64,000 nucleotides of DNA, taken from positions 107,501 to 171,500 of the forward strand of contig CAUYUJ010014590.1 of NCBI GenBank assembly GCA_963575745.1. Reading direction: 5' to 3'. The first letter of the stretch is position 1, and each line of letters opens with the position of its first letter. This document shows, in pieces, positions 1,445 to 62,120 of the stretch. This stretch comes from Prorocentrum cordatum. Its lineage: Eukaryota; Sar; Dinophyceae; Prorocentrales; Prorocentraceae. The translations under genes and the position numbers were made by a program. The notes under the pieces were generated by a model. It had not been told where the DNA came from. It was given only the letters and a program-made list of their open reading frames with translations, and searched no databases.

Positions 1445-1997
1445 TACGCTGGTTTGAAGAAAAAATCTGCGCCTGCGACGGGCTCGTTGTATAATTTGTA
1501 AAACTTTGGCGCCTGCGGCGGGGTTTTCCAGAGTCTCGCAGACTGCCGACGTCCCCACCGCCCCTCCACTCTCACCCGCATCTGCGGGGTGCTACGTATG
1601 GTATATTTTTTGCCCCCCCCCCCCCCCCCAATGGTGGGGAGTATCATGGCCAGGGCCACAAGACCTCCCAGATATCAAGGCCACCTCGCTACTCTTTCAA
1701 TGCATCTCCATGGTCCCTCCTCGTCTGCGCGCATGCACCCCCCTCTTTTCTTAGACCCACTCCTCGGCGCACCCGAGGGAGCGGGGTGCGAGTGTGTTCG
1801 CAATAGCTCTCGGGCTCCTTATCGCCTCGGGGTGCTCTCAAACAGCTGCGCCTCGTCGAGGGCTTGCTGGTGGTGCCCGAAACGTCCCGAAGGGCCGCCG
1901 GGGGCCCGAGCTATGACCTGAACACCGCGTTGGCCATGACATCTCCAGGATTTTGAGGACGACCCGCAATCCATGAACATTCTGCAAAGTTGAAAGA
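1445..1997. other. Intergenic, nothing recognised
   Basis: Contains a poly(C) run near 1612-1629. I find no gene or structured repeat. Confidence 0.4.
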
Positions 1998-2202
1998 CGG
2001 ATGTGCGCGGAGTTGAGGCGAGAGCATCATTTTGAAAACGGCCCGCCCTCCATTCGTGAAACGGCTGCGCATTTCAAGCTTGGGAATCATTGATGGTGAG
2101 GAAGTCTCAGGCGAAACGCCCAGACTGCTCTACCAACACATCTCGGGGTGCGACAAGGAAGAGTTTGTAGAAGGAACAGGAACGGATATGGAGGACAAGC
2201 AG
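1998..2202 (+). repeat. Composite dispersed repeat, copy 1
   Basis: Starts with the dispersed ~85-bp motif (TGCGCGGAGTTGAGGCGAGAG, then TTTGAAAACGGCCCGCCCTC). It continues through GAGGAAGTCTCAGGCGAAAC (2098-2117) and CTCGGGGTGCGACAAGGA, and ends in a GAG microsatellite. The same order of blocks recurs at 37325-37560, so this is one mobile or duplicated unit rather than chance similarity. It is non-coding as far as I can see. Confidence 0.75.
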
Positions 2203-2330
2203 GAGGAGGAGGAGGAGGAGGAGGAGGAGGAGGAGGAGGAGGAGGAGGAGGAGGAGGAGGAGGAGGAGGAGGAGAGGGAGGAGAAGCTGGAATAAGAGGA
2301 GGAGGAGGAGGAGGAGGAGAAGGAAGAGAA
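2203..2330. repeat. (GAG)n microsatellite
   Basis: More than 20 consecutive GAG triplets followed by imperfect GGA/GAA triplets. Poly-Glu, poly-Gly, poly-Leu and poly-Pro frames over it are artefacts. Confidence 0.95.
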
Positions 2331-2700
2331 GAAGGCCTCTTGAGGGCCTCGTGGGCTTCTTGTGGGGTTTGGGGAGCCTTTCGGGGCCTCTTGGGGGCCT
2401 CATATGTTTCTGTTTGGGGGGCCTCTTGGGGGCCTCCTGGGCCTCTCGCCCTCTCGCGGGCCGCCCTTGGCCGGTGTGGAACCCTTTGTGGGCGCTTCAG
2501 GGCCATCTTGGAGGCCTGTGGGGCCGTCTAGCCCGCCCTCTTGGGGCGGTCTTTGTGGCCTCTTGTGCTGTCTTTGGGGGCTTCGTGGACCGCCGTTGGG
2601 CTGTCTTGGAGGCTTTTGGGCCGTGTTCGGATGTCCGAAGACTGACATGGCGAGAACGCGGCAACTATTGAAACATCTCAGCCGCGTGGATGCCAAACAG
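2331..2700 (+). repeat. GGCCTCTTGGGG interspersed repeat, block 1
   Basis: Irregular tandem of GGGGCCTCTTGGGGGCCT-like words, each ~10-18 bp. It leads into a core with GGCGAGAACGC near 2649. Blocks of the same type on either strand lie at 3838, 16690, 17840, 32030, 35770, 55255 and 60478. This is the most widely dispersed repeat in the window. Confidence 0.8.
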
Positions 2701-2949
2701 TGAATTTTTGCACTGGAGGGGTGGAAGCTATGTGGTATAACGGGTGGCAACTGGCGCCGCCGGCCGTGACCGTGACCGTGTCGAATCCTCGCCATCAGGA
2801 GCGAAAGAAGGACGTACATGTACATGAATCCACGCTGGTTTCGAGAGCATGCATTGCACAAATGTTCGTATCACGCGGCCGGTCTCGCGAATCGAGGGGC
2901 CGTGTTCATGTACATAGCTGAGCGCGTAGGTCCTTTGTGGGCTCCCTAC

Positions 2950-6217: not shown

Positions 6218-7149
6218 ATTTGAGCAGGGGTCGTTGTCGGTGTTGCCGCAGACCGTGGGGAGTGTCCACTGCAGGTAGAAAGTCGTCTGCCTAGCGGCGG
6301 CCGTTGGCGGCGTTGGACGACATTTTCTGCTCTTGGGCATCGTGCCCACTTTTCCCGTACCCCCTTCAGGGAAAGCTCCGGGGTCGAGGACCCCGAGTCC
6401 GGCAGGACATTGCTCCGCCAGTTCCATCCAGCAGGGCGAAGGGCGCCAGCCTGCTGAGACTCAGAGGTGCGAGAAGCAGTGCTGACGATGCGTCCCGAGA
6501 TGTCCCGTCACAAGGGGGCAGCTTTTGCCAGTTTTCGGCCTCCGGGGGGCCCTCCGTGGGCCTGGGGCAGTCAAAGATCGATTCCGTGTGAGAGCCCGGT
6601 CCTGTGGAAGGGGTCCCGGCTTCCCGGGTTCCATGTGGTGGCAAAGATCACGCTGTCGGAGGTCTGGAGACCGAGAGGTTATGGGTATACCGGGTGCGTT
6701 TCAAGATTTCCGGGTTTTTTGCCTTCCCTCGCGGCCCCGAGCGCGAATGGCCGAGGGTTGTTGGAAACCCTGGAATTCACAGATCGCGCATCCTGAGCAA
6801 AGCAAGGGGGGCCTCTCATAGGAGAGGCCCTGGCCTTTCCCGGAGGCTTCTCTGGATCCATAGTCTCCCGTGTCGCACTTTTTGATGACCTTCCTGGGTG
6901 TTGGGCTTTCGTTTTGAATAGACTACTGTGGTCTCCGTCCTCCCCCTCCCCCTGCTCTTCGTCCTCCTCACCCCTCCTTCTGCCTCCTGCCTCCTCCTCT
7001 CTTCTCCTCCTGCCTCCTGCCTCCGTTGCTCGTGGCTTCTCTTCCGTCGCCATGTTGTCTCAATGTTGATGTGCGGGGAGGCTTCCGCCTCCGTGCCTGA
7101 CTGGGATAGCTCTGTTTCCCGATCCAGCTTTCAGTGATTTTGTGAGCTC

Positions 7150-30646: not shown

Positions 30647-30668
30647 TCCGTAGCCACTTAGTTTCAAG
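30647..30668 (+). other. Degenerate spliced-leader relict
   Basis: TCCGTAGCCACTTAGTTTCA plus AG matches the 22-nt dinoflagellate SL with 17 of 21 defined positions, including the first nine and the last five. It ends 58 nt before the ATG of the methyltransferase-like frame, where a trans-spliced leader would sit in an mRNA. It suggests the gene passed through an mRNA intermediate. The next bases are GTAGTT, so a decayed SL RNA gene cannot be excluded, but the downstream frame favours a relict. Confidence 0.6.
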
Positions 30669-30726: not shown

Positions 30727-31902
30727 ATGGCTGGGATCCTTGAACGATCAGTCTACGCTCTAATATCCATAGCAACGATCAGTCTGCTATGCGCAATTCT
30801 TAAATTGGATTCGACCGCAGACCATGTCAATGTTGCGCAGTCGTCGCTACTGCAATGCAGACACACAGTTGAAAACGTGCTGGCGAAATTCAGTACAAAT
30901 TCAGCACATGCGCTGAACATGTCAAATCACGACGCAGCTCAGAAGAGCATGATGGCTGTTTACCATGAGTGGTGGAACAGACAGGGAACATTGGAGGACT
31001 ACAGCAATGTGGTGCTGCAACGGGCATATACGCAGAACTTGTTGATGGGGCGCATTGTTAACGACTTGTACTACCTGGAACTTGCAACAAGCGGTGGCAG
31101 TGCCGCCTATAGCAGTCTTCTGAGAAATGGGACGCAGCCGCTTAACGTTGTTGCTCTCGGTTCTGGTCCTGGCAGTGAGCTGTGGAGTTTGATGATATTT
31201 TTGGGCCCTCGACAGCTTTCGAAGCGGTTGAAGAGGGCTGTATTGGTAGACGCTGCTCCTTGGGGTGAGACAGTCAGAGAGTTGGACGGGTTGTTTCGAC
31301 AGCAGCTGTCGAAGTACGAGAATGGGAAATGCGATTTGTTTGCAGCCGGTGATGGTCAGGAAAACGAGGGGGCATCGGAGTCCCCGTCGTCATCATTCCG
31401 AGTGAATTTTCACCAGGCAGATGTATCTTCAGTCTTTCATAGAGGGCCACATGCGAACCCTACCCCTACCCCCCACGATTTCTGAGGGGGAGGGTGGGGT
31501 TCACTTCGTTCGGGAGCTCCCAAGCGAAGTGAACCCAACCCTCCCCCTCAGAAATCAGGGGGGGAAGGGGTAGGGTTCGCATGCGGTCCCCTATTTCAAG
31601 CCAACGGTCAAGCCTCGGCGCTCCTCGCCTCTTTCCTCGATCGCTCACCCAGCACATTGAACCTGGTGTTCCTTTACCGCTTGACGTGGGACCTGTGGGC
31701 TCATGCGGCGCAGTCAACTCTGTTTAGTTCGTTTTTGAAGCAGCTTGAAGACATTCCGACAGTTGAAGTGTTTGTCGCAGATGCGTATTCGACAAGTGCT
31801 GTCTATCAAGCAGGTGACGGGTGGCAAAAACAAACACACATTGAAGAAGGCAGAACACGCGATCACAGGAATTTCTACAGCTTCCGTAGGGCAGGCTCTT
31901 GA
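30727..31902 (+). CDS. Class I SAM methyltransferase-like protein, split by a foldback element
   Basis: The ATG at 30727 opens an N-terminal membrane anchor (residues 9-25). A Rossmann-type core follows: NVVALGSGPGSEL (residues 140-152, SAM-binding motif I), RAVLVDAAPW (170-179, motif II with acidic residue) and FRVNFHQADV (224-233, motif III). After a 154-bp insertion at 31440-31593 the same phase continues with LNLVFLYRLTWDLWA (motif IV-like strand and helix) and VEVFVADAYS, ending at 31902. Leaving out 159 bp (element plus one target duplication) joins the two parts in frame. With the element retained, TGA at 31483-31485 ends translation after 252 residues. The C-terminal ~25 residues (GDGWQKQTH...) look unrelated and may be intronic. 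A decayed SL relict lies upstream, so this is probably a retrogene. Substrate unknown; fold assignment moderately sure. Confidence 0.6.
31440..31593. mobile_element. Foldback element family A (MITE), copy 1, inside the methyltransferase frame
   Basis: Inverted ends TAGAGGGCCACATGCGAACC / GGTTCGCATGCGGTCCCCTA extend into arms of ~70 bp, closing on a small palindrome CGGGAGCTCCC. It is flanked by TTTCA at 31435-31439 and 31594-31598, a perfect 5-bp target duplication. The copy at 40360-40503 is over 95% identical, so activity was recent. Candidate splice sites GA (31442) and AG (31599-31600) would remove exactly 159 bp and keep the frame; GA donors are reported in dinoflagellates. Either the gene is broken or the element behaves as an introner. 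Confidence 0.85.
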
Positions 31903-60370: not shown

Positions 60371-60477
60371 ACATCTACCCGGGGAAGGAAATCCGGGCCC
60401 GGAAACCACGGCCTCGAACCCCCAATCTGGGTCCACCCCCCCCTGGGGCCTCCTCGGCCGCTCCCCGGCCGCTCAAG

Positions 60478-60908
60478 GCAGCCCTTGGGACGCTCCAAGA
60501 GCGCCCACGATGGCTTCCAGACTGCCCAAGAGGTTGCCAAGAGCACCCGAAAGCGCCACAGAGGGCCCCCAGGACTGGTCAAGATGACTTCCCAGTGCCC
60601 TAGATGGTTTCAAGACGGCCCAAGAGGCCCCGAAAACGCCCCAAAAGGCCCCAACGAGGACCCCCACGAAGCAAAAATCGGCACATTCCCTTCGGAAAAC
60701 GTGCATTTTTAGCATGTTCGTTTGTTTGATCTCGAGAGCGTCCAAGACGTCCCAAGAAGCCCCCTAGATCCTCCCAAGTCGGCCCCAGAGGCCCCAAGAG
60801 GGCCCCAAAACGGCCCAAGAGAACACCAAGACGGCCCAAGAGAGCCCCATGACGGCCCAAGAGCGGCCTCAAAGGGCCCAAAAGGCTCCCAAGAGAGCCC
60901 CAAGACGG
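60478..60908 (-). repeat. GGCCTCTTGGGG interspersed repeat, block 7 (inverted), split by a retrocopy
   Basis: CAAGAGGCCCC/CAAGACGGCCC words with core at 60662-60755 (CACATTCCCTTCGGAAAACG, TTTTTAGCATGTTCG, GAGAGCGTCCAAGACG). The same repeat resumes at 62103-62190 after the retrocopy, so the retrocopy landed inside it. Confidence 0.85.
60891..60908 (+). repeat. Left target-site duplication of the MAPEG retrocopy
   Basis: AAGAGAGCCCCAAGACGG, directly before the first base of the spliced leader. The identical 18 bp are at 62103-62120. Confidence 0.92.
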
Positions 60909-60930
60909 TCCGTAGCCATTTTGGCTCAAG
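60909..60930 (+). other. Complete dinoflagellate spliced-leader relict
   Basis: T followed by CCGTAGCCATTTTGGCTCAA and G: all 22 positions of the canonical leader (first position D = T). The next bases are CC, not a GT splice donor, so this is not an SL RNA gene; it is the leader already joined to an mRNA. It marks the 5' end of a reverse-transcribed message. Confidence 0.95.
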
Positions 60931-61014
60931 CCGTTTTTGCTCCAGGCTAGGCCAAGCAAGGCATTGCACTAGCTGCTGCTCGTTCAAGCCAGTCGGTACC
61001 GCGGGGTCGACGCC

Positions 61015-61758
61015 ATGATCCTGGACCTCGGCTGCATGAAGCTGCCCTTCGAGGGCGACTTCAACACAATCATGATATTCACGGGGTTCGCGTCGGCATG
61101 CATCTCGACCACCTTGTTCTTTAACTTCGTCACCCCGAAGGGACCTGCACTGGGGGCAGGTACCCCCGAGCAAGTTGTTGATGCCTTCGGCAAGACGATG
61201 ATCGTGCAGGCCGTATGATGCATCATCTACTACAACTACGTGGGCGCTTAGGTTCTGGGCGTGTTCCTCTCAGGCCCTTGGGCCATGCTCGACGGGAAGA
61301 AGCAGACAGAGAAGTGGTGAGCGAACGCCTCGCGTTTCGCGGGCAACCAGTTTGAGCAAAGCTTTGTTTTCATCCCGTGTCTGTGGATGTACGCAGGGCT
61401 CGTTGATTACGAGACGGCTTGGACCCTTGGCGTGTTGTATATCATTGGCCGAATCCTGTATCCTCTCTTTTACGTTGTCCACGGGAGGTTCACTTTCTTC
61501 TTCGAGCACATCACCCAGGTTGGCTATGCAGTCAACGGCACGTTCATATTGGGCGCACTGATCAGGGGGGCGAAGTGGGACTACGTCGAGTTCTCAAAAG
61601 ATCACAACATTCTCACGCAGATCTTGGGTGCATGCCTCGGCGTCTTCACCCTTCTGCCGGGGGTCGGAATCACTATCCCTTGGTTCATCGCGCACACCGT
61701 GATGGACCGCAAGCGTGCCCAGGCATACTCGGCATCGGTCACTCCAGGCGACGCCTGA
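61015..61758 (+). pseudogene. Processed pseudogene of a MAPEG-family membrane protein
   Basis: A 247-codon frame in one phase, interrupted by TGA (61216-61218), TAG (61249-61251) and TGA (61318-61320), each one transition away from Trp or Gln codons. No indels. N-terminal hydrophobic helix (TIMIFTGFASACISTTLFF). Then ANASRFAGNQFEQSFVFIP, the helix LGVLYIIGRILYPLFYVVHG and the C-terminal hydrophobic segment ILGACLGVFTLLPGVGITIP. The R..(A/G)NQ.E......P and LG..Y..GR..YP..Y patterns are those of MAPEG proteins, small four-helix microsomal glutathione-transferase-like enzymes. Because the frame is intact apart from three point stops, the copy is young. Family call from motifs only. Confidence 0.8.
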
Positions 61759-62092
61759 CCAGGGCAATCGTGTATTCATCCTTTTCATGATTTTCCGCCA
61801 GCCGCCACAGAAAAATGTCGGTCGGCCGAGCTTCCATATCATTAATGTGATATCCCTGCACGTGCTCAGGCTATCCAGTCCTCGATGTACTCGCCTGCAA
61901 AGCACGCGGATGTTGGGAGCAGCTCCAAGGGTTTTCCGTAGCAGCCACTGCACCTCGGCGCGGCCCGGGACGCTCTGCAAAGCGTTATTTTTGTTGCTTC
62001 GACGCCCTGCCAGGTCGGCGAGTATTCCGTGGCCGCGGGGCCGAGGCCAGAACAGGCAGTAACGAAACAGGCACTGCAGCGCAGCGACGAGC

Positions 62093-62104
62093 AAAAAAAA
62101 AAAA
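62093..62104 (+). other. Poly(A) tail of the retrocopy
   Basis: Twelve consecutive A followed directly by GAGAGCCCC of the right target duplication. No AATAAA precedes it, as is usual in dinoflagellate messages. Confidence 0.9.
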
Positions 62105-62120
62105 GAGAGCCCCAAGACGG
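62103..62120 (+). repeat. Right target-site duplication of the MAPEG retrocopy
   Basis: Exact 18-bp match to 60891-60908; the first two A are shared with the poly(A) tail, so the true length is 16-18 bp. CCCCAGCCTCCCAAG follows, continuing the host repeat. Confidence 0.92.

Follow-up and report, generated by a model that had tools for sequence, protein, structure and literature searches.

Positions 60909-62104 of the window, by which we mean the whole 64,000-nt stretch of Prorocentrum cordatum DNA analyzed here, are a retrocopy, complete from end to end, of an mRNA that had been trans-spliced and polyadenylated. The insert (1,196 bp) is set between two exact copies of an 18-mer. We consider it very probable (roughly 0.9) that LINE-type target-primed reverse transcription acted in trans on a MAPEG-family mRNA from an older retrogene, and that the inserted copy then decayed. 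The first-pass annotation, made from the letters alone, had proposed a retrocopy with a target duplication, and this proposal stands: a parent-like gene found on another contig (C20452) has neither the leader, nor the tail, nor these flanks. That gene, the dead frame of the copy and a decayed older leader had been overlooked. The features of the locus are the following.

60439-60908 (no strand): host site, a degenerate CCCAAGACGGCCC-type array with a spacing of ~21 bp in part, resuming beyond 62121 (by eye, limits approximate)
60891-60908 (+): left copy of the target-site duplication, AAGAGAGCCCCAAGACGG (exact 18-mer search and alignment)
60909-60930 (+): complete 22-nt dinoflagellate spliced leader TCCGTAGCCATTTTGGCTCAAG, first base T (perfect match)
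60931-60945 (+): decayed older leader CCGTTTTTGCTCCAG, 12/15 to CCATTTTGGCTCAAG (the same in the parent-like gene on C20452)
60946-61014 (+): remaining 5'UTR, without ATG (sequence reading)
61015-61758 (+): MAPEG-family frame, 247 codons and stop, decayed (Pfam and translation)
61759-62092 (+): 3'UTR, 334 nt to the first tail A (sequence reading)
61829-61846 (+): 18 bp of the 3'UTR, present in the window copy and in a second copy on contig C18833 (L006), missing at C20452 (alignment)
62093-62104 (+): 12-A poly-A tail, its last two As common to the duplication (absent at the parent-like locus C20452)
62103-62120 (+): right copy of the target-site duplication, AAGAGAGCCCCAAGACGG (exact 18-mer search and alignment)

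Duplications made by LINE-type processed pseudogenes measure about 7-20 bp, and the one found here, adjoining both ends of the insert, lies inside that range. The alignment of 60891-60908 with 62103-62120 confirmed the claimed 18-bp duplication at 18/18 positions; the edge-to-edge match is exactly 18 bp and ends where the leader begins. Since the last two As of the tail are common to the duplication, its true length is 16-18 bp. The 12-A tail was equally verified, and among A runs of nine or more it is the only one on the plus strand of the window (61.3% GC; T runs of that length number six), abutting the right duplication copy. At the other end the complete leader matches perfectly, as first read. 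Reverse transcription up to the first nucleotide of the RNA had also been claimed, and this was borne out: the leader begins with T where the right duplication copy is followed by C, hence this T was copied from RNA. The decayed older leader sits directly behind the new one, in the register expected after re-trans-splicing (chance ~1e-5 at a preset place); the rule given in the excerpts of PMC3229502 and PMC12014239 is that a genomic leader is spliced anew at the AG of its nt 7. The template RNA was thus transcribed from a gene that had itself arisen as a retrogene.

The insert was searched against the 4.13-Gb assembly of 21,875 contigs, in which the window occupies 107501-171500 of contig C13741, and 40 of the 79 candidate matches were scored. 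Four of these 40 were pieces of the gene on C20452, where two copies are separated by ~40 kb and the second adjoins a stretch of N; another was the full-length copy on C18833. The window copy and C20452 are 98% identical (blocks of 846/864, 241/249, and 39/39). C20452 reads TTTGCTGCAG immediately followed by CCGTTTTTGCTCCAG, and the window leader joins exactly at that CAG acceptor (in short form, CAG before CCGTTTTT); at the 3' end, GACGAACAAA runs on into CAGATAG with no tail. The 247-aa ORF of C20452 equals protein cluster P0002, whose sources are MMETSP, JGI and 'lgn', and as the MMETSP transcriptomes are among them, an equivalent transcript is expressed. The 3'UTR contains a sharply bounded interspersed repeat of 1,080 bp (G000:C20452:50601-51680); the 40 scored of its 10,471 first-look candidates were 91-100% identical, nearly all with the same ends. 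The two-piece match to C20452 was tried as an intron-bearing parent and dropped, because the intervening segment is this repeat. The suggested search for an intron-containing parent of 61015-61758 therefore led to a parent-like gene elsewhere with no intron within the copied stretch, and of an intronless parent with the same flanks, which the first-pass annotation had named as damaging to its reading, the intronless state was found together with different flanks. It follows that the RNA route is documented by leader, tail and duplication, not by intron loss. A search of 84,980 prokaryote genomes gave no parent gene, which is unsurprising for a gene of eukaryotes.

The name of the protein is based on the MAPEG profile (40.3 bits, cut-off 23.4); the best solved-structure match, microsomal glutathione S-transferase 2, reached an E value of 0.048 only. 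The intronless frame described earlier proved continuous, with no frameshift in its 247 codons, but not open, being interrupted by in-frame stops at 61216 (TGA), 61249 (TAG) and 61318 (TGA), at W, Q and G codons; its lack of introns has no weight, as the parent-like gene is intronless too. A three-way comparison of the window copy, C20452 and the C18833 copy over 1,147 ungapped columns gave 18, 8 and 54 unique changes, respectively. Within the frame, the window copy showed eight amino-acid-changing (three of them the stops) and two silent unique changes versus none and four in C20452 (Fisher 0.015), which suggests constraint on the parent-like gene and none on the window copy. Stops, at three of the eight amino-acid changes, are somewhat more frequent than neutrality would predict (P 0.005-0.03 under different mutation models). 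At the decay estimated from the eight changes, an intact leader with both duplication copies intact is expected 41-46% of the time.

The source and the fate of the copy could be read differently. The template may have been another allele, a paralogue or an already decayed transcript instead of C20452, which would change the source and leave the mechanism the same. Both retrocopies contain the 18 bp that C20452 lacks and are free of its 1,080-bp repeat, so the C20452 allele as assembled was not the exact template, and the excess of stops also suits a different one. However, C20452 has the same acceptor junction and an identical older leader, and no closer locus appeared among the 40 scored of the 79 candidate matches; on balance, we consider such a different source rather unlikely. 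It is far less probable that the copy is a functional retrogene whose stops are tolerated or edited. The frame without frameshift would agree with it, and some dinoflagellate nuclear mRNAs are edited, according to an excerpt of PMC10666404, but the stops fall at W, Q and G codons, the changing-to-silent ratio of 8:2 stands against 0:4 in the parent-like gene, and it is C20452 that encodes the protein known from transcriptome data. The window copy, descended from an older retrogene, is a processed pseudogene with a dead frame.

The copy on C18833 (93%) is older, with a leader of 20/21, the older leader and one extra base in the frame. It ends in an A-rich tail, AAAAAGAAA, and is flanked by a decayed duplication, GAGGTCCGTCAGTG and GAGGTTCGTCAGGG, matching at 12/14 positions. 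These features mark it as the product of an earlier retroposition, again of an RNA from this gene.

The first-pass annotation had also advised testing flanked leader relicts for duplications of 10-20 bp, and such duplications were recovered at part of those surveyed. Among the 40 scored of the 79 candidates, 36 loci bore a leader, and 27 were surveyed, a sample drawn by similarity to the leader plus older leader and thus not random (three of the 27 matched the 21-mer at 20/21, as did L055 at 20). Ten loci were left out because their microsatellite flanks match each other, with swapped scores of up to 22; this left 17 complex-flank loci, including the window copy (L005) and L006. The score was the number of matches minus twice the mismatches for the best copy of the 5' flank behind an A-rich 12-mer, and 442 swapped pairs of flank and downstream sequence, each flank reused 26 times, served as controls; owing to this reuse, Fisher values for the survey are rough. 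A score of at least 10 was reached by 8/17 loci versus 1/442 swapped pairs, at least 8 by 9/17 versus 9/442, and at least 6 by 11/17 versus 25/442; the loci's own flanks read backwards scored 5 at best. All eight loci at 10 or above have an A-rich tail and a duplication of 14-20 bp. The remaining 9/17 stayed below 10 (8/17 below 8), and some of these misses may stop before the tail, as the downstream reach was 1.5 kb at five loci and 2.7-2.9 kb at three. The duplication matches were 18/18 at L005, 12/14 at L006, 20/20 at L012, 13/14 at L013, 16/17 at L014, 15/15 at L016, 14/14 at L017, 17/18 at L020, and 16/18 at L027. L016 has four other bases between the A run and the duplication, and L020 and L027 have one or two extra bases before the leader. 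The 5' ends of these loci were also compared with the target. In L014 the first leader T is, likewise, unlike the target base; in L016 it equals the target base and is hence uninformative on 5' completion. In L012, L013 and L017 the base before CCG is not T and equals the next target base (by eye), as if copying had halted one nucleotide early.

Five of the nine duplication-positive loci (L005, L012, L013, L017 and L020) have a CCAAG-type target by eye, which in most of them lies within a recognizable CCCAAGACGGCCC-like array (less plainly in L020); this may be a preferred target or merely an abundant repeat. Six of the nine listed duplications begin with AA, a start favored by As common to the tail. 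In the ten microsatellite-flank loci (L011, L015, L019, L021, L024, L026, L028, L031, L032 and L034) the leader abuts a 5' repeat of the (GGA)n, (TCC)n or (CAT)n type, and no clear tail with a duplication was seen downstream at these 10/27. They may represent a separate class or microsatellite-targeted insertions.

From both RNA ends, the duplication, the parent-like locus with its acceptor, the older leader, the unconstrained decay, the recurrence at other loci and at least one open APE-RT frame, all of them observed, we infer the following order of biochemical steps and an element of that kind as the source of the enzyme. The template would be a mature MAPEG-family mRNA, trans-spliced at the 5' end and polyadenylated, from a gene itself an older retrogene. 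An apparatus of the LINE type, with an APE endonuclease and a reverse transcriptase, would act on it in trans, nicking the bottom strand opposite CCC/AAGA and leaving a 3' TT, with which the poly-A tail would pair; the nick predicted at C/AAGA would offer a short TT primer strand. First-strand synthesis would then copy the RNA in full, as far as the initial nucleotide of the leader, the second strand would be cut 16-18 bp away, and repair would duplicate that stretch, after which the copy would decay as a processed pseudogene.

As to the enzyme, the domain order of APE-type LINEs is Exo_endo_phos and then RVT_1. RVT_1 gave 25,237 first-look candidates in the genome; all 150 scored were over the cut-off, most without stops. 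The one frame read, on C13430, has Exo_endo_phos (35.8 bits) followed by RVT_1 (145.2 bits) in an open stretch of 1,177 aa, and by these domain matches the genome appears to hold at least one APE-RT element as a candidate source. The flanks fetched for this LINE example contained no leader (best 12/21). A LINE inside the window itself was also considered and rejected: three YxDD-type motif matches were seen, none in a reverse-transcriptase-like context (by eye; few ORFs were scanned with Pfam).

Two further explanations concern the insertion itself. The 18-mers could be two units of the host array parted by the insert, with no duplication at all; the site is a degenerate array, with near copies of one or two mismatches just upstream. 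When up to three mismatches were allowed, AAGAGAGCCCCAAGACGG occurred at 12 places in the 64 kb (mean of 0.04 in shuffles), namely both edges, three close upstream near copies (1-2 mismatches) and seven places elsewhere, all ten non-edge places having 1-3 mismatches. The first-pass annotation had itself warned that such a match might be frequent in the host repeat with no insertion in between, whereas exact copies of the 18-mer within the 64 kb stand only at the two insert edges. With the flanks rejoined as an empty site, 0 of 79,689 position pairs yielded an exact 16-bp direct repeat, a null that covers blunt inserts or inserts losing up to 100 bp in the joined empty-site region. Moreover, the array spacing is 21 and not 18, both 18-mer copies end exactly at leader and tail, and the same signature is found at loci with other flanks (L014, L016 and L027), which makes parted array units hardly credible. 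The other explanation holds that a Ty1/copia-type LTR retrotransposon copied the mRNA and that integrase inserted it. Integrase duplications are 4-6 bp long, unlike the 16-18 bp found here and the 14-20 bp at seven other loci. The poly-A abuts the duplication, the 5' end is full-length, and between the duplications only leader-to-tail sequence is present, with no LTR or chimeric ends. Ty1/copia is nevertheless favored for its high expression in a 2018 review, which, in the excerpts of PMC6050394, calls the responsible element type unknown. We regard this route as very unlikely, since duplication length, tail and full-length 5' end together favor an APE-type LINE over integrase. The enzyme class had been said to be readable from the insert, a claim strengthened by the recurrence of the signature at other leader loci. 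We lean only slightly toward the broader view that mRNA recycling in this dinoflagellate is driven mainly by LINE-type target-primed reverse transcription instead of LTR elements, with most of the exact leaders in the genome being full-length retro-insertions by that route and a CC/AAG preference in GGCCCCAAGAC-type repeats.

The assembly contains 14,218 exact matches to the 21-nt leader and none to the reversed pattern. SL RNA genes were rejected as the bulk of these leaders, as only 76 of the 14,218 are followed by GTA (the GTA donor alone was counted). With 27 loci inspected, we infer that most of the leaders are retro-insertions. Leader-like 21-mers with four mismatches start at 7044 and 30648 in the window, and a duplication was looked for and not found at either. 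The one at 30648-30668, CCGTAGCCACTTAGTTTCAAG (17/21), lies ~60 bp upstream of an ORF (30727-31485) and is perhaps an old leader relict. This ORF has a sub-threshold Methyltransf_34 match (24.5 bits, cut-off 26), and at its end (~31436-31600) a large near-perfect foldback-like palindrome was noticed by eye.

Leaders were also seen in other collections. L001 (IMGVR_UViG_3300045993_001077, 1936-2913, minus strand), a contig of 22% GC filed as viral and giant-virus-like by eye, has two exact 21-nt leaders 147 bp apart, the second preceding a 254-aa ORF that matched only itself in a protein search. A clean poly-A or duplication was looked for there and not found; the arrangement suggests that a virus has acquired a host mRNA together with its leader. 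A further viral contig, L004, was matched by a shorter leader pattern. Exact leaders on contigs filed under Dehalococcoidia MAGs, L002 (CAJXDJ010000191.1) and L003 (JAKUNN010000063.1), possibly mark mis-binned eukaryote DNA; in L003 the leader is followed by GTACGC, at a guess the donor of a leader RNA gene.

Retrogenes make up 22-23% of the genes in two Symbiodinium genomes, according to the excerpts of PMC6050394, and a 2025 study states, in the part available, that retrotransposons may mediate the recycling and does not rule out retroviruses (PMC12014239). Target-site duplications are mentioned for MITE-like intronic elements (PMC7789003). In our non-exhaustive full-text search, which covered sources in part, no report of duplications at leader-tagged dinoflagellate retrocopies was found; an earlier report is possible. 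In the leader-tagged endogenous RNA-virus elements of Symbiodiniaceae a leader likewise stands near integrated RNA-derived sequence and a role of LINEs was proposed; the excerpts describe no tail or duplication, and the term 'target site' is absent from the main text of that paper (PMC10235124). Retrocopies that retain both ends and the duplication are directly relevant to the question of which element recycles dinoflagellate mRNA. The leader is nucleotide 1 of the RNA, so each such locus tells whether reverse transcription reached completion. If a LINE engine does drive the recycling, the leader would provide a built-in measure of the frequency with which reverse transcription extends to the RNA cap.

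Dinoflagellate SL-relict retrogenes were reportedly described by Slamovits and Keeling in 2008. Their leader, followed by an older leader truncated after nt 7, is taken as a sign of repeated mRNA recycling in the excerpts of Jaeckisch et al. 2011 (PMC3229502) and Haro et al. 2025 (PMC12014239). Like them, the window copy has an older leader truncated at nt 7 behind the new one. Those retrogenes are known by their 5' tag and are expressed genes with an intact frame; the window copy, in contrast, is dead, with three stops, and its 3' tail, duplication and parent acceptor can be read as well. Mammalian LINE-1-type processed pseudogenes have a poly-A tail, a duplication of 7-20 bp, a parent elsewhere and a decayed sequence. 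The window copy shares the tail, the range of the duplication, the remote parent and the decay with them. It differs in the trans-spliced leader that marks the exact 5' end of the RNA, in a parent-like gene that is intronless over the copied stretch, and in the predicted nick, which would offer a short TT instead of the longer T tract of the mammalian pseudogenes.
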